This document shows positions 4,015-20,599 of a stretch of 64,000 bases of DNA, in pieces. Position numbers and translations under genes: made by a program. This DNA is from Streptomyces sp. CG 926 (lineage in GTDB: Bacteria; Actinomycetota; Actinomycetes; Streptomycetales; Streptomycetaceae). The DNA lies in NCBI RefSeq assembly GCF_003148825.1, contig NZ_QGGZ01000016.1, positions 62,001 through 126,000 of the forward strand. The letters run 5' to 3'. The first letter of the stretch is position 1. Every line of letters begins with the position of its first letter. The notes beneath the pieces are model-generated. The model searched no databases. It was not told the origin of the DNA and saw only the letters and a list, made by a program, of their open reading frames with translations.

Positions 4015-4977
4015 ATGCGACACCGGAGTGCGCTGCTGTGCGTCCTTCTGACGGCGGCTCTGCCGGCGGCCGTTCCCGGGTGCGGAGGTCCTTCCGCCCT
4101 GCACGGCACACCGCCCGCGCCCTCATCCGTACCGGCCACCGGCGACTTCTCCGGCCAGGTCGAGGTGGGCGGCGGCCGGAAGATCTACCTGAGCTGCAAG
4201 GGCAGCGGCAGCCCCACCGTCATCCTGGAATCCGGGCTGCACGACTCCTCCGACACCTGGACCATCACGGACACCCGGCCGCCCGTACCGAAGGCCCCGG
4301 CGGTGTTCCCCGGCGTCGCGGCCTTCACCCGGGTCTGCGTCTACGACCGGCCCGGGACCGTCCGGTACACCGAGCCGCCGGCGCTCACCACCCGCAGCAC
4401 TCCCCTCGACGGCATCCGCACCCTCACCGCGATGGCCGACGACCTCGACAAGCTGCTGACATCCGCACGGGTGCCGGGCCCCTACGTGCTGGTCGGCCAC
4501 TCCTTCGGCGGGATGATCACCCGGCTCTACGCCCAGCGGCACCCCCGCAAGACCGCGGGGCTGGTCTTCGTCGACGCGTTCGGTACGGACATCCGCGCCC
4601 TCTTCGGCACGCGCTGGGCCGCGTACCGCGCGCTGTTGAACAGGCCCGGCACCCCCTTCGACACGCGACCCGCGTTCGAGAGGGTGGACATCGACGGCGC
4701 GATCGACTCCGTCACCACCGCGCCGCCCCTGCCGGCGGTACCCATGGCCGTGCTCAGCAAGACGGAACCGTTCGCCGCCGCGCCCGGAACCCCGAAGGAC
4801 CTCCTTGACACCCTGGAGCGGGCCTGGCCCCAGGTCCAGCAGAAGCTGGTCGAGCTGGGGAACCAGACCCCGCAGTTCCTGGCCACCGGGAGCGACCACT
4901 ACGTACAGGTGCACGACCCCGACCTGACGATCGACGCCGTCCGGCTCGTCGTGGGCCGCGTCCACGCGAAGCAGTAG
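4015..4977 (+). CDS. Alpha/beta hydrolase, probable lipoprotein
   Basis: A 320-residue alpha/beta hydrolase. The N-terminus has a basic start, a hydrophobic core and VPGC at about residues 14-17, which resembles a lipobox, so it is probably anchored outside the membrane. The nucleophile elbow is VGHSFGG with Ser163. The other catalytic residues are likely Asp in VFVDAFG or a later Asp, and the His in GSDHYVQVHDP. An upstream segment (ILESGLHDSSDTW) forms the oxyanion region. The start ATG at 4015 follows GGAG (4006-4009). The substrate is unknown; an esterase or lipase-like role is the family default. Confidence 0.85.
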   Translation: MRHRSALLCVLLTAALPAAVPGCGGPSALHGTPPAPSSVPATGDFSGQVEVGGGRKIYLSCKGSGSPTVILESGLHDSSDTWTITDTRPPVPKAPAVFPGVAAFTRVCVYDRPGTVRYTEPPALTTRSTPLDGIRTLTAMADDLDKLLTSARVPGPYVLVGHSFGGMITRLYAQRHPRKTAGLVFVDAFGTDIRALFGTRWAAYRALLNRPGTPFDTRPAFERVDIDGAIDSVTTAPPLPAVPMAVLSKTEPFAAAPGTPKDLLDTLERAWPQVQQKLVELGNQTPQFLATGSDHYVQVHDPDLTIDAVRLVVGRVHAKQ

Positions 4978-5000
4978 ACCGGGCTCCCGGTGCGGGACGT

Positions 5001-5028
5001 CCGGGCCGGCCGCGCGCGGCCGGCCCGG
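5001..5028. terminator. Perfect 28-bp palindrome, likely bidirectional terminator
   Basis: A perfect inverted repeat with 14-bp arms (CCGGGCCGGCCGCG and its complement) lies in the 60-bp gap between the convergent hydrolase and katG genes. No T-run follows on either strand, which is usual for high-GC actinobacterial terminators. Confidence 0.7.
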
Positions 5029-5037
5029 AGCTCAGGA

Positions 5038-7293
<2,256 letters not shown>

Positions 7294-7310
7294 TCACGGT
7301 GTTCAGGAAC

Positions 7311-7340
7311 TGAATGCGACTGATTGCGACCGATTGCGAT
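7311..7340. promoter_or_regulatory. Three tandem 10-bp repeats upstream of katG
   Basis: On the + strand TGAATGCGAC, TGATTGCGAC and CGATTGCGAT follow each other without a gap. The spacing is one helical turn, so a protein could bind the same DNA face three times. The position 42-71 bp before the katG start fits an operator or activator site. Assignment to the adjacent Fur-family protein is inference. Confidence 0.5.
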
Positions 7341-7535
7341 GGAACAGCCGGGGCGCGGGGCCCCGAGCGCATGGACTCGGCGTCGTCGATCGCCACGAAG
7401 CCGAGGTGTCACCGTCCCGGACGGTTGCGAGAAGTGGGACGCCGGCGGCGGGTGTGCGCGGGTCGGCGCCGAGCAGCGCCCCGGCGGTGATCCGTCGCGT
7501 CTTCGTCACCTGCCGCTCCGGAGTCTTCCTGTCTC

Positions 7536-7564
7536 TTGGCTATCTACGAAACCGATCCTACGAT
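7536..7564 (+). promoter_or_regulatory. Candidate promoter of the Fur-family gene
   Basis: TTGGCT (7536-7541) and TACGAT (7559-7564) are separated by 17 bp, matching a SigA/HrdB-type promoter. Transcription would begin near 7571, leaving a leader of about 100 bases. It lies in the 401-bp katG/fur intergenic region; the rest of that region shows nothing else I can name. Confidence 0.5.
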
Positions 7565-7670
7565 GGACGGAATCCAAGTCAAGAAGGACACCAGGTCCAC
7601 ATTCGTTCGGATCCCGGATGTCGGCCGACAACCTTCGGAGCACCCGTCGAAGCTGAAGAGGTGGGCCCAT

Positions 7671-8081
7671 ATGAGTGACCTGCTGGGGCGTTTGCGCGGG
7701 CGTGGCTGGCGGATGACCTCGCAGCGGCGCGTGGTCGCGGAGGTCCTGGACGGTGACCACGTGCACCTCACGGCGGACGAGGTGCACGCCCGTGCGGCGC
7801 GGCGGTTGCCGGAGATCTCCCGGGCGACCGTCTACAACGCGCTGGGCGAACTGGTCGCCCTCGGCGAGGTCGTCGAGGTGAACACCGACGGCCGGGCCAA
7901 GCGCTACGACCCCAACGCGCATCACCCGCACCAGCACCTGGTGTGCTCCGCCTGCGGACTCATCCGTGACGTCCACCCGACGGACGACCCGCTGGCCGGC
8001 CTCCCGGCGGACGAGCGCTTCGGATTCGCCGTGTCCGGGGTCGAGGTCACCTACCGGGGCCTGTGCCCGGACTGCGCGTAG
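7671..8081 (+). CDS. Fur-family (FurA/CatR-like) metal-dependent or peroxide-sensing repressor
   Basis: A 136-residue Fur-family repressor. The winged helix covers residues 1-80 (LRGRGWRMTSQRRVVAEVL, RATVYNALGELVALGEV). The metal-binding half has the His-rich HHPHQHLVC run and two CxxC pairs (CSAC and CPDC), typical of a structural zinc site. The start is ATG at 7671 with AGAGG upstream. A longer frame upstream is rejected because it covers the likely promoter. Divergence from katG points to peroxide control of the catalase-peroxidase, as for CatR/FurA/FurS proteins of Streptomyces. Which of those it matches best cannot be decided by eye. Confidence 0.9.
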   Translation: MSDLLGRLRGRGWRMTSQRRVVAEVLDGDHVHLTADEVHARAARRLPEISRATVYNALGELVALGEVVEVNTDGRAKRYDPNAHHPHQHLVCSACGLIRDVHPTDDPLAGLPADERFGFAVSGVEVTYRGLCPDCA

Positions 8082-8141
8082 CGCACCCGCCGGATACTTC
8101 CCGCCCGACGCCCGACGCCCGCCCGCGCCCCTGCCCGTGCC

Positions 8142-8705
8142 CTATCCCTGTCCTTCCTGCTCCACCTCGTCCACGTGCCGGGCGCCGCGCCAGGCCGCCT
8201 CGAACTCCTCCTCGCCGATCTCCATGCCCACCAGTTCGGGGTCGAAGAGGTCGAAGAGCGGCGGGTTGAAGGCCCAGTCGTCCGGATCGCTGCGCACACC
8301 GCGGCCGTCCGGGCCCCGTTCGACCTGACGCAGCCTGCGACCGTCGGACCCGACCTCCAGCAGGTACAGGGTCCGGCCCTCGCCGTCCTCCTCGTCCCAG
8401 GAGCGCCGCAGCCACACGATCTCCCGGTCGGCGAGCGCCCCGAAGCCGTCCAGGCCGCGCTGGGCCTCCCGCAGGGCCCGCAGGTCCGCCAACCCGGCGG
8501 GCGTGCTCGCCCCGTCGACCCGGACCTCCTCCAGATCCCAGCCCTCGGCCTCCGCGACCGTCTCCTGGGTCTCGACGACCTCCACCTCCGCGAACGTCTC
8601 GCGCACCTCCCGTACCGATCGCGCGTGGACCCACCACCACAGGCCGCCCATGCCGTAGTCGTGGAGCACGAGAAAGCGCTGCGTGGGCGCAAAGTGATCC
8701 TTCAT
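8142..8705 (-). CDS. Conserved hypothetical protein
   Basis: A 187-residue soluble acidic protein with no signal peptide, membrane helix or catalytic motif I recognise. Notable stretches are the aromatic N-terminus (LHDYGMGGLWWWVHARS), a Glu-rich helix (REVRETFAEVEVVETQETVAEAEG) and a Trp/Asp-rich C-terminal half (DDWAFNPPLFDLFDPELVGMEI). It reads like a small cytoplasmic protein of the kind widespread in Streptomyces. It is convergent with the Fur-family gene and divergent from the pls-like gene. Coding is supported by codon bias and a clean ATG at 8705. The function is unknown. Confidence 0.75.
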   Translation of the reverse strand: MKDHFAPTQRFLVLHDYGMGGLWWWVHARSVREVRETFAEVEVVETQETVAEAEGWDLEEVRVDGASTPAGLADLRALREAQRGLDGFGALADREIVWLRRSWDEEDGEGRTLYLLEVGSDGRRLRQVERGPDGRGVRSDPDDWAFNPPLFDLFDPELVGMEIGEEEFEAAWRGARHVDEVEQEGQG

Positions 8706-8952
8706 ATCGGCCGACGATAGGCGAGCCGCCGATCACGGTCCGTGCCGCCCCGGCAACGGCCCGACGGTCTGAATTCCCCCTTGCAGCGTGGCGCTAATAC
8801 CGTCTCTTACCGGCCATGCGCAAGGCTTCAACAAGAAAATCCTTGATGGCGCACTAGACTGGTGGGTTGTTTGGCGCTGGGCCGGAACAACCTGGGCAGA
8901 CCCGGGCTCCGCCGGCGACCCGGATGCTGCCGGGAACGAGACGCGAGGGCCG

Positions 8953-11900
8953 ATGGCAGTCACACCTGAGCACGGTGAACTCACTCTGCTCGACGACGGG
9001 GAGACGCTGGAGGAGTCCGGCAAGTCCGCCCGGTTCACCTCGGGGCCCGCCGCCCCCACCCGCACCCTCGTCGACATCTTCGAGGCCACCGTACGGACCT
9101 ACCCCGACGAGCTCGCCCTCGACGACGGAACCACCCGATTGACCTACCGGGCACTCGCCGTCGAGGTCGAACGCCGGCGCCGGGCCCTCGCGGCCGCCGG
9201 GGTAGGACTCGGCGACCGGGTCGGCGTCCGCGTGCCGTCCGGGACCAACGAGCTGTACGTGGCCGTCCTCGCGGTCCTCGCCGCCGGCGCCGCCTACGTA
9301 CCCGTCGACGCCGAGGACCCGGACGAGCGGGCCGACCTGGTCTTCGGCGAGGCCGGGGTCCGCGCCGTCCTCGGCGGCGGGCAGCGCATCCACCCCGGCC
9401 GCACCCCGGAGCCCGGCGCCCGCGCGGCCGCCTCCCGCCCCGGCCCCGAGCACGACGCGTGGATCATCTTCACCTCCGGCTCCACCGGCAAGCCCAAGGG
9501 CGTCGCCGTCAGCCACCGCAGCGCCGCCGCCTTCGTGGACGCCGAAGCCGCGCTGTTCCTCACCGAGGAGCCCATCGGCCCCGGCGACCGCGTCATGGCC
9601 GGACTGTCCGTCGCCTTCGACGCCTCCTGCGAGGAGATGTGGCTGGCCTGGCGCTACGGCGCCTGCCTCGTGCCCGTGCCCCGCTCCCAGGTCCGCAGCG
9701 GCGCCGACCTCGGCCCCTGGCTCGTGGAGCAGGAGATCACCGTGGTCTCCACCGTGCCGACCCTGGCCGCGCTCTGGGAGCCCGAGGCGCTCAACGAGGT
9801 CCGACTCCTGATCTTCGGCGGTGAGGCCTGCCCGCCCGAGCTCACCCAGCGCCTGGTCACCGAAGGCCGCGAGGTCTGGAACACCTACGGCCCCACCGAG
9901 GCCACCGTCGTCGCCTGCGCCGCCCTGCTGACCGGCGAGGAGCCGATCCGGATCGGCCTCCCGTTGAACGGCTGGGAACTGGCCGTCGTCGACGAGTCCG
10001 GCGAACCGGTGGCCATGGGCGGCAGCGGCCAGCTCGTGATCGGCGGGGTGGGCCTCGCCCGCTATCTGGACCCCGACAAGGACGCCGAGAAGTACGCCCC
10101 GCTCGAGACCCTCGGCTGGCAGCGCGCCTACCGCAGCGGCGACCTCGTACGCGCCGAACCGGAAGGCCTCGTCTTCCTCGGCCGCGCCGACGAGCAGATC
10201 AAGCTCGGCGGCCGCCGGATCGAGCTCGGTGAGGTGGACGCCGCGCTCCAGGCGCTGCCCGGCGTCGCGGGCGCGGCCGCCGCCGTCCGCACCGCGCGCA
10301 GCGGCAACCAGCTGCTCGTCGGCTACCTCGTCACCCAGGACGGCTGGGACCACGCGGCTGCCGTGACCCGGCTGCGCGCCGAGCTGCCCGCCGCGCTCGT
10401 ACCGCTGCTCGCACCCGTCGCCGAGCTGCCCACCCGCACCTCCGGCAAGGTCGACCGGGCCGCACTGCCGTGGCCGCTGCCCGACCTGGAGACCTCCGGC
10501 CCCACCGAGCAGCTCTACGGGACCGAGGCCTGGCTCGCCGAGCAGTGGAGCGAAACCCTCGGCGTCACCGTCGCCGGCGCCACCGACGACTTCTTCGCCA
10601 TCGGCGGCGGCAGCCTCGCCGCCGCCCAGCTCACCACCCGGCTGCGCACCCGCTACCCGAGCGCGGCCGTCCTCGACATCTACCAGCAGCCCACCCTGCG
10701 CAAGCTGGCCCGGCACCTGGAGAAGTCCGCCCAGGGCGACGGCGCGGCCCGCACCGTCGCACCGGTGCCGCTGCGTTCCCAGGTGGCCCAGTCGCTGCTG
10801 CTGATCCCGCTCTTCACCCTGGTGGGACTGCGTTGGACGGTCGCCCTGCTCGCCCTGGGCAACGTACTGCACCACTTCGGGCCCTTCCCGTGGGCGCCGA
10901 CCGCCTCGTGGTGGCTCGTCGCCGCCGGAGCGCTGCTGCTCCACAGCCCGCCCGGCCGGCTCGCGATCGCCGCCGGCGGAGCCCGCCTCCTGCTGCGCGG
11001 CGTGCACGCCGGACGCCACCCGCGAGGCGGAAGCGTCCACCTGCGGCTCTGGACCGCCGAACGGCTCGCCGAATGCGCCGGCGCCACCTCCCTCACCGGT
11101 TCCTGGCTGGAACGCTACGGCCGGGCCCTCGGTGCCAAGATCGGCCCCGAGGTGGACCTGCACTCCCTGCCCCCGGTCACGGGCATGCTCAAACTCGGCC
11201 GAGGCTGCGCCGTGGAATCCGAGGTGGACCTCTGCGGCCACTGGCTGGACGGGGACCACCTGGAGATCGGCGCGATCAAGGTCGGCGCGGGCGCGGTGGT
11301 CGGCACCCGCAGCATCCTCTTCCCCGGCGCGCGGGTCGGAAAGCGCGCCGAGGTGGCCCCCGGCTCCGCCGTCGTCGGACAGATCCCGACCGGCCAGCGC
11401 TGGGCCGGCGCACCCGCCGGGAAACTCGGCAAGGCCAAGCACAACTGGCCCACGGAACGCCCGCCGCGCGGGCTCCCCTGGCGGGCCGCTTACGGAGCGG
11501 CCGGCTTCGGCCTCACGGCCCTGCCCGTGCTCGCCGCACTGCCCGCCCTGCTCGTCGTCAGCCGCTTCGTCCCCGCCGACGCCGGGCTCACCGAAGCACT
11601 GCGCGGAGCGCTGCTCGCCGTGGTGCCCGCGGCGCTCGCCTACGGGTTCGCGTACGCGGGCCTGCTGCTGGTCTCCGTACGCCTGCTCAGCCTGGGCCTG
11701 CGGACCGGCACCCATCCGACGCACAGCAGGATCGGCTGGCAGGCCTGGACGGTCACCCAGCTGATGGACCTGTCCCGCGAGACGCTCTTCCCGCTGTACG
11801 CCGGACTGATCACCCCGGTCTGGCTACGGCTGCTCGGCATGAAGATCGGCCGGGGCGCCGAGGTGTCCACCGTGCTCGCCCTGCCCAGCCTCACCACCGT

Positions 11901-12864
11901 CGGCGAAGGCGCCTTCCTCGCCGACGACACCCTGACCGCCCCCTACGAGCTCGGCGGCGGCTGGATGCGCATCGGACACTCCGAGATCGGCCGCCGCGCC
12001 TTCCTCGGGAACTCCGGCATGACCGCCCCGGGCCGCACCGTGCCGGACGACGGACTGGTCGGCGTCCTGTCCGCCACCCCGAAGAAGGCCAAGAAGGGCA
12101 GCTCCTACCTGGGTCTCCCGCCGGTCCGGCTGCCCCGGTCCACCGCGGACGCCGACCAGAGCCGTACCTACGAGCCGCCCGCGCGGCTGCTGTGGGCGCG
12201 CGGCCTCGTCGAACTGTGCCGGCTCGTCCCGGTCTTCTGCTCGGCGGCCCTGGCCGTGCTGACCGGGGCGGGCCTCTGCGCCCTGATCATGCGGAGCGGT
12301 ACGGGGATCTGGGGAGCCGCGCTGCTGTCCGGAGCGGTCCTGCTCGCCGCCGGCACGGCCGCCTGCGCGGTCGCGGTGACCGCCAAATGGCTGCTGGTGG
12401 GTCGGCACCGGACGGGGGAGCACCCGCTGTGGAGCGGCTTCGTGTGGCGCAACGAACTGGCCGACACCTTCGTCGAGGTCCTGGCCGTGCCGTGGCTGGC
12501 CGGCTCGGTCCCCGGTACCCCGGTGCTGGCCCTGTGGCTGCGCGCGCTCGGCGGCCGGATCGGCCGGGGCGTCTGGTGCGAGAGCTACTGGCTGCCCGAA
12601 ACGGACCTGGTCGTGCTGGGCGACGGGGTCAGCGTGAACCGCGGCTGTGTGTTGCAGACACACCTCTTCCACGACCGGATCTTGAGGACGGATACTGTGG
12701 TGCTCCGTGAGGGCGCCACCCTGGGCCCGGGCGGAATCGTCCTGCCCGGGAGCACGGTAGGGGCCCGCAGCACACTGGGCCCCGCATCCCTCGTGATGGC
12801 CGGGGAATCCGTCCCCGCCGACACCCGCTGGCTGGGCAATCCGATCGAGGCGTGGCGGTCCTGA
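8953..12864 (+). CDS. pls-like: Pls-type membrane non-ribosomal peptide synthetase (epsilon-poly-lysine synthetase-like)
   Basis: A 1303-residue single-module NRPS with the architecture of poly-lysine synthetase (about 1319 residues in S. albulus). Order: adenylation domain, residues about 40-530 (A3 [12 protein letters not shown]5 NTYGPTE, A10 SGKVD); carrier domain about 531-600 with the phosphopantetheine serine in FFAIGGGSL; then three pairs of membrane helices (about 610-660, 845-915, 1095-1150) separating three soluble domains with left-handed beta-helix, acetyltransferase-like repeats. There is no condensation or thioesterase domain; in Pls these tandem C-terminal domains form the peptide bonds. 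The ten-residue A-domain code read by alignment to PheA is D-A-E-S-I-G-T-V-V-K, close to the known lysine code. The start at 8953 follows GAGGG. The M1 peptidase gene follows 95 bp downstream. Confidence 0.88.
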
Positions 12865-12959
12865 CCGGGCCGTTCCCGCCGCGATAGGCAGCAGGGCGGC
12901 ACCGGCACACCGGTACACCAGCACGTCGTACGAGCACAGCGCAGGGAGCGGAAGCGGCA

Positions 12960-14366
12960 GTGAGCGGCCAGAGAACAGAGCCATCGGACCCGTACTTCCC
13001 GGCCAACGGCGACTCCCGTTACCGAGTGCACCGGTACGAACTCGCTCTGGAGTACCGGCCCGGGCCCAACCGGCTCGCGGGCACGGCCCGGCTCAGCGCG
13101 ATCGCCGGTCGGGCGCCGCTCACCGAATTCCACCTGAACCTGGCCGAATTCAGAATAGGCCGGGTCCTGGTGAACGGCCGGGCGCCGCAGTACACCCACC
13201 GCGGCGGCAAACTCCGGATCCGCCCGGCCAAGCCGCTGCCCGCCGGCTCCGCTTTCACCGTCGAGGTGCACTGGGCGGGCAACCCCAAGCCGGTGCGCAG
13301 CCCGTGGGGCGGACTCGGCTGGGAGGAACTGACCGACGGCGCGCTGGTGGCCAGCCAGCCCGTCGGCGCGCCCTCCTGGTACCCGTGCAACGACCGGCCC
13401 GCCGACAAGGCCTCGTACCACATCTCGGTCAACACGCCGTCCCCCTACACGGTCGTGGCCGGTGGCCGGCTCCTCACGCGCACGACGAAGGCCAGCACGA
13501 CCACCTGGGTCTACGAGCAGTCCGCGCCGACCTCCAGCTACCTGGTCGGCCTGTCCATCGGCATGTACCAGACGGTGCTCCTCGGCGATCCAGGCCTCGG
13601 CGGTGTGCCGCAGAGCGCGCATGTCCCGGCGCACCTGCTGCCGCGGTTCTCCCGGGACTTCGCCCGGCAGCCCGCCATGATGGCGTTGTTCGAGGAACTC
13701 TTCGGGCCCTACCCCTTCGGCGAGTACGTGGTGGTCGTCGCCGACGAGGAACTGGACGTCCCGGTGGAGGCGCAGGGCCTGTCCACCTTCGGCGCCAACC
13801 ACGTGGACGGCGTCCGCGGCTCGGAACGCCTCGTCGCCCACGAGCTCGCGCACCAGTGGTTCGGCAACAGCGTGACCATCGCCGACTGGCGGCACATCTG
13901 GCTGAACGAGGGCTTCGCGAAGTACGCCGAATGGCTCTGGTCGGAACGCTCCGGCGGCCGCACCGCGCACGAAAAGGCGGCGGCGGCGCACCGTCTGTTG
14001 GCCACACAGCCGCAGGACCTGCGGCTGGCCGACCCCGGCCGCAAGCTGATGTTCGACGACCGCCTGTACCAGCGCGGCGGCCTCACCGTGCACGCGATCC
14101 GCTGCGCGCTCGGCGACAGCGCGTTCTTCCGCATGCTGCGCGACTGGGCCACCGTGCACCGCCACGGGGTGGTGTCCACCCTGGCCCTCACCCAGCACGT
14201 CGCCCGCTACACGGTCGAGCCGCTCGACGACCTGTTCGCCGCCTGGCTGCACACGCCGGCCCTGCCACCCCTGCCGGCGCCGCCCCGGCCGCCGATACCG
14301 GCGAGGCCCGGCTATCCGCCGACGAACGGCGGCTCCAAGGGCGGCCGGGGCAAGACCTCGGCCTAG
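12960..14366 (+). CDS. M1-family zinc metallopeptidase
   Basis: A 468-residue cytoplasmic peptidase. The zinc site is HELAH (His294, Glu295, His298) with the third ligand Glu317 in WLNEGFA. A Tyr in DRLYQRGGLTVH fits the catalytic tyrosine. The N-terminal beta domain (RYRVHRYELALEY...) is normal. The usual GAMEN exopeptidase motif appears only as VEAQGLSTF, so N-terminus recognition may differ. The C-terminal helical domain of large M1 enzymes is missing, giving the short actinobacterial form, and the protein ends in a Pro/Gly/Lys tail. The start is GTG at 12960. Its place just after the Pls-like gene suggests it trims or degrades the polymer, as reported for poly-lysine-degrading M1-type enzymes of producers; this is inference. 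Confidence 0.9.
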   Translation: MSGQRTEPSDPYFPANGDSRYRVHRYELALEYRPGPNRLAGTARLSAIAGRAPLTEFHLNLAEFRIGRVLVNGRAPQYTHRGGKLRIRPAKPLPAGSAFTVEVHWAGNPKPVRSPWGGLGWEELTDGALVASQPVGAPSWYPCNDRPADKASYHISVNTPSPYTVVAGGRLLTRTTKASTTTWVYEQSAPTSSYLVGLSIGMYQTVLLGDPGLGGVPQSAHVPAHLLPRFSRDFARQPAMMALFEELFGPYPFGEYVVVVADEELDVPVEAQGLSTFGANHVDGVRGSERLVAHELAHQWFGNSVTIADWRHIWLNEGFAKYAEWLWSERSGGRTAHEKAAAAHRLLATQPQDLRLADPGRKLMFDDRLYQRGGLTVHAIRCALGDSAFFRMLRDWATVHRHGVVSTLALTQHVARYTVEPLDDLFAAWLHTPALPPLPAPPRPPIPARPGYPPTNGGSKGGRGKTSA

Positions 14367-16175: not shown

Positions 16176-18056
16176 CTAGCTCTGCTTCGTCCAGCGCTGC
16201 GACGCCTCCCCGCCGCACGTCTTGGTCACCAGGCCGCTGCTCATGCCCAGGTCGAGACAGCCCCCGCTGAAGTCGTTGCGGAGGCTGCCTCCCGAGCCCG
16301 TACGCCACAGCTGCGCGGTGCCGCCCGAGCAGTCCCCGACGAAGACCGCCTGGCCGAGCATGTTGGCGTACAGGCAGCCGCCGCCCTGCTGGTTCTCCAG
16401 CTTGAAGCTGCCGTCCGGCCTGCTCCGGACGGTCCATCGGGTGCTGGCGTCCGCGCAGTCGCCGTAGTCCGAGGCGCCGAAGACCTGGGTGATGCACTTG
16501 CCGTTGTTGCCGTTGCGGAAGCGGTAGGTGCCGGATGCGGGAGGCGCCGGGGGCGCCGCGGTGGTGGGTGCGGTGGAGGTCCCGCCGTTGGAGGGGCGCG
16601 TACCGCCGGAGCCGCCCGCGTTCGCGGGGTTGCCTGCGTTGCCGGAGTTTCCGGGGTTTCCGGCGCTGCCCGAGCCGGGCTGTGCGCCGCCGGAGCCGGG
16701 ACGGTTGCCGGGGTCGGTCCCGGGGGCGCCGCCCACGCCTCCTGCGGCCTCGGCCGGGGGAGCGCCCGTCCCGCCCTGTGCCGGGTCCTGGCCCGGTGGC
16801 TGCGTGGGCGCCGCCGTCCCGGAAGGGCTGCCGCCGGCCGCCGAGGCCGTCGGGTCGGCCGGCGCCGTGACCGGGGTGGACGGGGAGTTCGCGGCCCCGG
16901 CCTGCGGCGCGGAGGTGTACGGCAGGTGCTGGATGGCGAGGGTCGTACCGCCCGCGACCACGACGACGGGCAGGACGGCGAGCAGGACACGGGTCCGGCG
17001 CCGGCGCTCGGCCCGTTCCGGCCGGACCGTGGCCGGGGGAGCGGGGGCCGCGGGCGCGACGGGGGCCGGTGACCTCCCGGGCTCCGGCTCGGCTTCCGTC
17101 TTCTCCCCGGTGAGCGGGATCGTCGGTACGTCGGGCTCCTGCACGTGCGCGGCGAAGGCGGCCCGCTCGGTCAGGCGCTCGGTGACGGCCGCAGGCCACA
17201 GCGGGTCGGTGAACGGGCCGTGCGCGGAGGCCTGTGCCAGGAGTTCGGTGGCGGTGGGCCGACCCTCGGGGTCTTTGTCGAGGCAGGCCGCGACGAGCTC
17301 GGCTAGGTCCGGCTCCAGATCCCGCAACGGCTCCAGGTCGGGCTCCTCGTGGACGATGCGGTACAGCACCCCGTGCCCCGACTCGTCGCCGAACGGCGGC
17401 TGACCGCAGGCCGCGTACGCCAGTACGGAGCCCAGCGCGAACACATCGGTGGCGCCGCTCAACCGCTTGCGACCCGAGGCCTGTTCGGGTGCCATGTAGG
17501 CGGGTGTACCCACGACCATGCCGGTCCGGGTCAGTTGGCTCTGCTCGGCGGCCCGGGCCACGCCGAAGTCGATGAGCGTGAGACCGCCGAGGGTCAGCAT
17601 GACGTTGGAGGGCTTGAGGTCCCGGTGCACCATGTCCAGCGCGTGCACCGCGGCCAGTCCCGCCGCGGCTTCGCGCAGCAACAGCCACAGTGCGCGGGCG
17701 GGCAGCGGACCGCCGTGCAGTGCGATGGCCTCCCGCAGGGTGAGCCCGGGGATGTAGGCGGTGGCGAACCACGGGGGAGTGGCGGTGCGATCGCTGTCGA
17801 GCAGCGGCGCGGTGGCGCCCGCGGGGAGCCGGGCGAGGTTGTCCAACTCGTGCCCGAATCTGCGCAGGAAGTCCTGGTCCTCACCGACGACCGAGGTCAG
17901 CAGCTGTTTGACAGCGACGTACCGCCCGTCACGGACCCCCAGGTAGACGCGCCCCATGCCGCCGGCCCCGAGCCGGCCCGCGAGCGGGATCGACCCGATC
18001 CGGCGTGGATCCTCCGCCGCCAGCGGTTCGGCGCCGCTCCCCGTCAGCTCTAACAC
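16176..18056 (-). CDS. Membrane Ser/Thr protein kinase with extracellular ricin-type lectin domain
   Basis: A 626-residue Hanks-type kinase. The catalytic domain covers residues 15-280: glycine loop GAGGMG (30-35), Lys50, HRDLKPSN (144-151), DFG (163-165) and GTPAYMAPEQ. After a Pro-rich juxtamembrane stretch comes one helix (LLAVLPVVVVAGGTTLAI, about 348-366). A 140-residue Gly/Pro/Ala/Thr-rich linker and a C-terminal ricin B-like beta-trefoil (about 510-626; CITQVF, GGCLYAN, GGCLDLG and QRW motifs) lie outside the cell. The lectin half may sense glycans. The only possible start is GTG at 18056, as a TAG lies 11 codons upstream; this makes codon 2 a TTA, the rare bldA-dependent leucine codon. 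Divergent from the CHAT protease gene. Confidence 0.92.
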   Translation of the reverse strand: MLELTGSGAEPLAAEDPRRIGSIPLAGRLGAGGMGRVYLGVRDGRYVAVKQLLTSVVGEDQDFLRRFGHELDNLARLPAGATAPLLDSDRTATPPWFATAYIPGLTLREAIALHGGPLPARALWLLLREAAAGLAAVHALDMVHRDLKPSNVMLTLGGLTLIDFGVARAAEQSQLTRTGMVVGTPAYMAPEQASGRKRLSGATDVFALGSVLAYAACGQPPFGDESGHGVLYRIVHEEPDLEPLRDLEPDLAELVAACLDKDPEGRPTATELLAQASAHGPFTDPLWPAAVTERLTERAAFAAHVQEPDVPTIPLTGEKTEAEPEPGRSPAPVAPAAPAPPATVRPERAERRRRTRVLLAVLPVVVVAGGTTLAIQHLPYTSAPQAGAANSPSTPVTAPADPTASAAGGSPSGTAAPTQPPGQDPAQGGTGAPPAEAAGGVGGAPGTDPGNRPGSGGAQPGSGSAGNPGNSGNAGNPANAGGSGGTRPSNGGTSTAPTTAAPPAPPASGTYRFRNGNNGKCITQVFGASDYGDCADASTRWTVRSRPDGSFKLENQQGGGCLYANMLGQAVFVGDCSGGTAQLWRTGSGGSLRNDFSGGCLDLGMSSGLVTKTCGGEASQRWTKQS

Positions 18057-18352: not shown

Positions 18353-20599
18353 GTGGTGAGCACCCCCGCCGCCGCTCGCATCGCTGACCTGCTGGAGGAC
18401 GTGCCGACGGCCTCCAACCCGCCCGCGCGGTTCCCCGCTCCCGCCCCCGACCGGCCGCCTCGCACCGATGGTCCAACGCTCAACATCACGGTGATCTGGG
18501 GTGACATCGCGCAGATCGCGGCCGATCTGCACGTCACGGGCCATTACCAATCGGTAGTGCCCGCCGCGGCGGAACTCGCACTCGACCGGGCCATCTCCGT
18601 AGACCCCCGCCGGGTCATCACGGAGCACACCAAGCTCGGCTGGATCGACGCCCAGTTGGGCGAGGTCACCTACTTCCCCTGCAAGGAGGGCCCCGTGCGG
18701 TGCGCCGCCGTCGTCGGCATGGGACCGATGGGCACCTTGACGGAACGCCGTGCCGTCCAGATGTACGCCTCCCTGCTCGGGGAAGCGCTCGGGCTCGGCC
18801 ATGTCGGGACCATGACCACCGTGCTCATCGGCTCCGGCACCGGCAATCTGACCGTCAAACAGGCGGCCCGCGCCCTCGTCCGGGGCTTCGCCGACGCCCT
18901 CGCGCCGCTCGGGCCGCCCGCACCGCCGCCCGGGCTCACCGACGTACTCGTCATGGAGGTCGACCGGCTGCGTGCGGAGCAGCTCCACCTCGCCCTCACG
19001 GACTCCGCCTCGAAGCTTCCGCAGCTGCGGATCGTCCCCTGGCTGCGGGAGGAGAGCGGCGGCGAGTTGTTCGGGCCCTCCGCCGCGGTGTACGCCCTGT
19101 CGGCGCTCACCCGCCTCGCCGGTACGGTGGGCGCGGCCGCAGGTGACGGCACCCCGGGCAGCTCCGGAGCCGGCCCGGACCCGCCGGCCGGGGCGGACGT
19201 CCTGCAGACCGTGCTAGCCGGCTTCGACGCCGACATCCAGGGGATGATCCGTGAGCAACTGGCGGACCTGGCCTCGGTGGAACGTACTGAGCTCTCCCTG
19301 GCGGTCCGTAGACCCGCGGAGGCCCAGGACGACGCGGTGCCCGTCCGGATGTCCGTCCAGTCGGGGGTCGGCGGCCTGCGCTGGGCGGCGCTGACCGGGC
19401 GGGCCACCGTACCGGAACGGCTCGTGCCGGTGGACATGGACCTGCTGCGGGAACTCGTCGACCGGCTGACGGAACCGAGCGTCAAGGACGCGTGCGAACT
19501 GCCCGACCTGCTGTCCCGGTTCGTGGTGCCGCAGGACTTCCAGCGGCTGCTGACCGACGATTCGACCGTGCTGCTGGAACTGGACCGGGACACGGCCTCC
19601 GTCCCCTGGGAGTTCCTGGCCGAGATCCAGCAGGCGGGGGCGGACAAGCGCGATCCTCTGGCGATCCGCACCCAGCTCTCCAGACAACTGCGCACGACCT
19701 ACTCGCGGGTGATGACCGAGAGCCTGGCGGACGGACCGCTGCGCGCCCTGGTGATCGGCGACCCGGGAGACCCGGAGAAGGGCTTCCACCTGCCGGGAGC
19801 CCGCCAGGAGGCCTTGGCGGTGGCCTCCCGGCTCAAGGAGCTCGGGGCCAAGGTCAGTCTCTTCGTCGGCGCGGCGAACTCGCTGCGTCAGCCGGGCGTC
19901 GATCCCGCCCGGCGCCTGGACGTCCTGCGGGTCCTGCTGTGCGGAGGCAACCACATCGTCCACTACTGCGGACACAGCGACTTCGACCTCTCCGGCACGG
20001 GGCGGCGCTCGGGCTGGGTCTTCGCGGACGGCCTGCTGACCGCCCAGGAACTGGCCCTGCTCGAACGCCCGCCGCTGATCGTCGTCGCCAACGCCTGCTA
20101 CACGGCCCGGCTCGGTGACGCCGCCGGCCCCGGCACCCCGGCCACCGAGCCCGCACTCGCGGGCCGCAGTCCCTGGGGGAACCCACAGGCCGCGCTCGTG
20201 CCGAGTCTCGCCGACGAGTTCCTGCGCATGGGGGTGGGGCACTACATCGGGGCGGCCTGGCGGATCCCCGACGACCAGGGGATCTCCTTCGCCGATCAGT
20301 TCTACACGCACCTGTTCCAGGGCGGGCCCGGCGAGGCGACCCCGACCGTGGGCGGCGCCGTCCGCGCGGCGCGCCGGCGCCTCTACGGGCTGCGCGCCGC
20401 GGACGGGCAGGAGCAGGGCGCCGACAGCACGGCCGATCCGAGCGCTCCGAGCACTCCGAGCGGCCCGAACGGCGCCGCCGGTCCCGTCGGCCCCGCCGGC
20501 CGGGACGTCACCTCCGGCGGGCAGCGCTGGAGTTCCTGGGCCGCCTACCAGCACTACGGGGACGCGGCCGACCCGTTCGTCCGACCTGGGGGCAGCTAG
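18353..20599 (+). CDS. CHAT-domain (caspase-like) protease with macro-like N-terminal domain
   Basis: A 748-residue cytoplasmic protein. The C-terminal half is a CHAT peptidase: LVIGDPGDPEKGFHLPGA opens the domain, His541 lies in VHYCGHSDFD and Cys582 in VANACYT, the order and spacing of the catalytic dyad of CHAT caspases. Residues about 43-190 (LNITVIWGDIAQIAADLHVTG..., then CAAVVGMGPMGTLTERRA) resemble a macro / M17-N-type alpha-beta fold that could bind ADP-ribose or nucleotides; this is a resemblance only. A short Pro/Ser/Gly tract near 680-720 precedes the end. The start is GTG at 18353 or the adjacent GTG at 18356, after AAGGGAGG. An LCAT-like lipase gene follows; a divergent lectin-kinase precedes it. 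Possibly a conflict or signalling protease. Confidence 0.85.
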   Translation: MVSTPAAARIADLLEDVPTASNPPARFPAPAPDRPPRTDGPTLNITVIWGDIAQIAADLHVTGHYQSVVPAAAELALDRAISVDPRRVITEHTKLGWIDAQLGEVTYFPCKEGPVRCAAVVGMGPMGTLTERRAVQMYASLLGEALGLGHVGTMTTVLIGSGTGNLTVKQAARALVRGFADALAPLGPPAPPPGLTDVLVMEVDRLRAEQLHLALTDSASKLPQLRIVPWLREESGGELFGPSAAVYALSALTRLAGTVGAAAGDGTPGSSGAGPDPPAGADVLQTVLAGFDADIQGMIREQLADLASVERTELSLAVRRPAEAQDDAVPVRMSVQSGVGGLRWAALTGRATVPERLVPVDMDLLRELVDRLTEPSVKDACELPDLLSRFVVPQDFQRLLTDDSTVLLELDRDTASVPWEFLAEIQQAGADKRDPLAIRTQLSRQLRTTYSRVMTESLADGPLRALVIGDPGDPEKGFHLPGARQEALAVASRLKELGAKVSLFVGAANSLRQPGVDPARRLDVLRVLLCGGNHIVHYCGHSDFDLSGTGRRSGWVFADGLLTAQELALLERPPLIVVANACYTARLGDAAGPGTPATEPALAGRSPWGNPQAALVPSLADEFLRMGVGHYIGAAWRIPDDQGISFADQFYTHLFQGGPGEATPTVGGAVRAARRRLYGLRAADGQEQGADSTADPSAPSTPSGPNGAAGPVGPAGRDVTSGGQRWSSWAAYQHYGDAADPFVRPGGS

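Follow-up and report, generated by a model that had tools for sequence, protein, structure and literature searches.

The gene pair at 8953-14366 of the window, by which we mean the whole 64,000-nucleotide stretch of Streptomyces sp. CG 926 analysed here, is very probably a pls-pldII pair whose first member encodes a predicted epsilon-poly-L-lysine (epsilon-PL) synthetase. The assignment is made because of the domain layout, the identity of the adenylation code to that of the crystallised A domain of epsilon-poly-L-lysine synthase (7WEW), the conserved pairing with a downstream peptidase gene, and the placement of the protein in a tree of its relatives. Because of the code and domain evidence, the A domain is proposed most likely to adenylate L-lysine with ATP and to load it onto the carrier serine. 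The C-terminal units, embedded in the membrane, would then most likely link the lysines one by one via the epsilon-amino group, giving epsilon-PL without condensation or thioesterase domains, and the neighbouring M1 peptidase most likely cuts the polymer, either for self-protection or for length control. We infer the lysine substrate, the chemistry, the polymer and the role of the peptidase from published work on Pls and PldII.

The window enzyme belongs to a known family and is unremarkable within it. No new principle is involved, as earlier publications already cover the family and its code, the accompanying peptidase and how widely such genes occur in Streptomyces (PMC8117764, PMC9223678, PMC10522769, PMC11734326). 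For example, a Streptomyces pangenome is reported to hold 730 epsilon-PL clusters at >80% similarity, which rank with the most frequently recurring of the known clusters there (PMC11734326). Likewise, the NAPAA cluster of Streptomyces antarcticus, which is near S. avidinii by 16S rRNA, is reported to match epsilon-PL perfectly (PMC12451607). Given this assignment, the strain probably carries an epsilon-PL pathway, a point that may be of use in annotation and in the choice of polylysine producers.

Domain organization of the predicted synthetase

The pls-like gene is an open frame at 8953-12864 (+), in a genome of 8,513,506 bases on 46 contigs, and its translation is a protein of 1303 amino acids of the Pls/PosA family of non-ribosomal peptide synthetases (NRPS). 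The matches of the best relatives start from residue 1 of the protein that begins at the ATG at 8953; an alternative GTG lies upstream at 8788. Pfam places an AMP-binding domain at residues 43-370 and a carrier (PP-binding) domain at residues 527-589 (10531-10719, +), the latter with a GGGS motif from residue 551. The adenylation domain extends over residues 25-511 (9025-10485, +) and is 66-69% identical to 7WEW, the figure varying by alignment. The NCBIfam profile TIGR02353 (Pls/PosA family non-ribosomal peptide synthetase) covers residues 611-1298 (10783-12846, +) at 843.2 bits, the curated cut-off being 423.1. A Pfam scan of the 1303-residue protein detected no condensation or thioesterase domain, and its Hexapep match is sub-threshold.

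Pls is described as having three tandem acetyltransferase-related domains with six membrane segments between them (PMC8117764), and the C-terminus, as modelled, agrees with this layout. The AlphaFold2 model of residues 601-1303, with 25 sequences as input, has a mean pLDDT of 79.4 and a pTM of 0.84; parts of it are weak, and model residues 421-467 fall below a pLDDT of 50. It comprises three consecutive units on the + strand, each with a pair of helices ahead of a beta-helix. The first unit consists of helices at residues 607-642 and 653-680 (10771-10992) and a beta-helix at about 746-827 (11188-11433), the second of helices at 841-872 and 879-912 (11473-11688) and a beta-helix at about 964-1018 (11842-12006) that is followed by a low-confidence stretch, and the third of helices at 1091-1113 and 1118-1148 (12223-12396) and a beta-helix at about 1202-1294 (12556-12834). 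A hydropathy scan alone recovers five of the six membrane helices that the layout calls for, namely both helices of pairs 2 and 3 and the first of pair 1, the second helix of pair 1 being under the threshold; two segments outside the six, 100-121 and 1176-1194, also pass it. Foldseek comparison of the C-terminal model with the PDB gives 40 matches at E <= 0.001 (best E about 1e-4), and the matches listed are serine, galactoside, maltose and related hexapeptide-type acetyltransferases, each covering only part of the model; none of the 50 listed exceeds a TM-score of 0.14 by query length.

The protein thus combines an A domain, a carrier and three C-terminal tandem domains, with neither a condensation nor a thioesterase domain. 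An earlier sequence-only reading had proposed this very layout, with its three helix pairs and three beta-helix domains, and the family profile, Pfam and the structure prediction bear it out. The same reading called the layout rare, which does not hold: the idea of a rare enzyme was rejected, as 229 of the 392 sampled Streptomyces genomes exceed the TIGR02353 cut-off, A-less members counted too.

Adenylation code and peptidase partner

The code residues obtained by alignment are D223, A224, E227, S266, I287, G289, T311, V319 and V320 (9619-9912, +) and K499 (10447-10449, +), which read DAESIGTVVK. The same ten letters had been read by eye and taken as lysine-type, and both points stand, since the code is identical to that of 7WEW at all ten positions. 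Two of these positions had been held to be a possible sign of another basic monomer, a doubt which arose because the yardstick was a bacitracin-synthetase code and not 7WEW; both match the Pls A domain, and the suspicion is rejected. A phmmer search of the PDB gives 7WEW as the top match at 665 bits (E 1.9e-198), the second best being at 408 bits and PosA (8G95) at 185 bits. Chance is therefore excluded as the source of the likeness to epsilon-poly-L-lysine synthase.

Code position 2 is reported to be Ala in Pls (lysine), Met in PosA (ornithine) and Phe in the Dap/Dab synthetases, the beta-lysine code to be DGESISVVNK, and some few homologues to depart from these groups (PMC10522769). The window protein, with Ala224, has neither the Phe of the PDAP/PDAB enzymes nor the Met of the PosA code DMEHNGTVSK, and DAESIGTVVK is also distinct from the epsilon-poly-beta-lysine code. 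A literature search for the exact string DAESIGTVVK and for the model name TIGR02353 found no match to either, which carries little weight. Among 108 code rows, made up of the window, its 80 best relatives and 27 further loci (a few rows being duplicates of one sequence), 106 read DAESIGTVVK and two (L153, L157) read DAESVGTVVK. Likewise, 26 of the 30 Streptomyces loci L091-L120 have an A domain, each with DAESIGTVVK, the other four being A-less, and the code is the same in all 23 loci of L164-L186, the window's gene included. Phe-type members of the family also occur in Streptomyces, with DFECLSVVTK at L201 and L202 and DFEYVGTVTK at L205; L204, L206 and L208 end before code position 2, and the remainder reads YMGTVTK. 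All six have a C-terminal identity of 23-33% to the window protein and no M1 gene in the flanks examined. The members with Phe at position 2 are clearly separate from the window protein.

Directly downstream of pls lies a pldII-like gene (12960-14366, +) for a predicted M1 zinc metallopeptidase of 468 amino acids (PF01433, E 3e-26) with the motif HELAHQW...(18)...E. An M1 gene is found in the same position and strand in 80/80 best relatives and in 106 of the 108 code rows, the exceptions being L146 and L148. It also adjoins every one of the 26 full-length loci of L091-L120 and 21 of the 23 loci of L164-L186, the two without it being L173 and L180. The occurrence of pldII beside pls is described as the context of pls, the other three synthetases being reported to be without it (PMC8117764), and in S. 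albulus pldII, which encodes an epsilon-PL-degrading enzyme, is said to be translationally coupled to pls (PMC9223678). The peptidase of the window starts 95 bases past the pls stop codon, and overlap coupling as in S. albulus is therefore not evident here. Judged by sequence and position, the gene would occupy the place of pldII, and the adjacency is independent evidence for pls.

The locus may be compared with the characterized systems as follows. S. albulus Pls is alike in layout, in the ten-residue code and in the M1 gene directly downstream, but the window protein differs from it in the A-domain identity of 66-69% given above, in belonging to a sister clade and in the 95-base gap before the peptidase. 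S. albulus PldII is likewise encoded by a metallopeptidase gene beside pls (PMC9223678), that of the window being of M1 type with an HExxH...E motif; the comparison was made through proxies, the peptidases beside the S. albulus-type loci L133 and L134, which score 374 and 377 bits against the window peptidase (self 1088). The C. variabile Pls is likened to the window by its published description, which gives the same layout and peptidase gene context (PMC8117764). PosA, the delta-poly-L-ornithine synthetase of Acinetobacter baumannii (8G95-8G98), shares the TIGR02353 family and the layout; unlike the window gene, it has the Met-type code and is described as a single-gene operon with no co-transcribed neighbour (PMC10522769). 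Similarly, the poly-diaminopropionate and poly-diaminobutyrate synthetases share family and layout but are reported to have Phe at code position 2 and another gene context (PMC10522769, PMC8117764).

Relatives and alternative readings

The closest named relative is a protein of Streptomyces avidinii JCM 4726, with 95% identity. Matches to the 7WEW A domain at E <= 1e-120 are present in 168/392 Streptomyces genomes, and in a class-level sample 30 of 148 genomes lie above the TIGR02353 cut-off. A C-terminal tree of 166 rows, built by a quick method with a midpoint root and several long branches flagged, puts the window protein and that of S. avidinii together in a Streptomyces group within a set of 156 rows, which stands apart from the A-less members and from L180 and L187. 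A clade of its own, with a support of 100, is made up of the 18 rows of S. albulus type (L133-L149 with L151). The reference for this type is a pair of proxies, L133 and L134, in place of a named proven full-length enzyme; their A domains are 95 and 94% identical to 7WEW, and the window protein is 57-58% identical to them over its length. PMC8117764 sets its cut-off at an identity of 40% or more to a confirmed full-length Pls, over 80% of the latter. In support of the assignment, a C. variabile homologue just 51% identical to S. albulus Pls is reported to make epsilon-PL when expressed in S. coelicolor (PMC8117764). As the window protein falls outside the S. albulus-type clade, it is therefore a distant orthologue or an old paralogue.

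Of the two types, that of the window is found more widely in Streptomyces. Two A-domain matches at E <= 1e-120 occur in seven of the 168 genomes, and in the five two-copy genomes with both copies in the tree each pair is divided between the window-type and S. albulus-type clades. It is conceivable, if unlikely, that the window-type clade makes a lysine polymer of another length or destination, for example one that is cell-attached or developmental and not a secreted antimicrobial. The S. albulus-type pls of L146 and L148, which belong to two of the five two-copy genomes, have no M1 gene in the 8.5 kb examined, and each of the two genomes carries a second, window-type pls with its own M1 gene. 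L180 (G412), which has the code DAESIGTVVK, a C-terminus 27% identical to that of the window protein and no M1 gene, groups with the A-less members on a long branch.

A homopolymer synthetase for some other basic monomer (ornithine, diaminobutyrate, diaminopropionate or beta-lysine) is a very improbable reading of the gene. The family is reported to make such polymers (PMC10522769, PMC8117764) and the A domain is just 66-69% identical to 7WEW; however, the full code identity, free of the Phe, Met and DGESISVVNK signatures, argues against it, as do the low C-terminal identity of the Phe-type L201, L202 and L205 and their flanks, in the part examined, with no M1 gene. Moreover, no Dap/Dab supply gene was found among the neighbours scanned, which are part of the window's genes. 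We give almost no credence to an ordinary NRPS A-carrier protein fused to an unrelated membrane acyltransferase tail that would synthesize no polymer. The beta-helix units do resemble acetyltransferase folds in the Foldseek comparison, and A domains encoded elsewhere in this genome do match the A region, but the entire C-terminus belongs to TIGR02353, far above the cut-off, and in the own-genome search the best matches off the locus reach at most 256 bits vs 2898 for the protein itself.

The reading to be taken most seriously beside these is that of an intact epsilon-PL synthetase which is silent or gives very little polymer in ordinary culture, and it is quite possible without being the expected case. 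The large share of Streptomyces genomes with this gene type is in keeping with it, and C. variabile offers a precedent, since it is itself described as having the gene with no detectable epsilon-PL or Pls protein (PMC8117764). Hence the presence of the gene is not proof of production. Against silence stand the open frame and its high conservation among relatives.

Flanking genes and other Pls/PosA-family loci

A larger biosynthetic cluster around the predicted pls-pldII pair was considered and rejected, because just 3/80 relatives share the katG-like and Fur-like genes that flank the pair (as seen in flanks of up to 7 kb, a number of which end with the contig); the contig of the window (C16) also has no other match among the 71 own-genome matches.

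Elsewhere in the genome, L089 (G000:C4:374000-392000) contains a second Pls/PosA-family locus at its positions 4216-13094. An A-less protein of 938 amino acids with a carrier and TIGR02353 at 725.7 bits (5423-8239) lies there beside a separate A-carrier protein (8335-10854), whose code, from one pairwise alignment, reads DIWQSTADDK. Also encoded there are a dioxygenase of TauD type, an SbnB-type protein (411.6 bits to TIGR03944) and, on the opposite strand, a PALP enzyme, so that SbnB/SbnA-like genes accompany the A-less protein. The arrangement resembles a split Pls-type polymerase equipped with a diaminopropionate supply. A-less TIGR02353 proteins recur in Streptomyces at L161, L162 and L163, all three with a separate A-carrier gene. 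TauD and SbnB homologues are present at L161 and L163 and a PALP homologue at L161; the 12 kb of L162 hold none of the three, and an M1 peptidase homologue is present.

Upstream of the pair, at 5038-8078 of the window, a KatG-type peroxidase (PF00141, -) lies beside a Fur/PerR-type regulator (+, 7536-8078). Downstream, a Ser/Thr protein kinase that carries a ricin-type lectin domain (16176-18056, -) is followed by a CHAT-domain protein (18353-20599, +).
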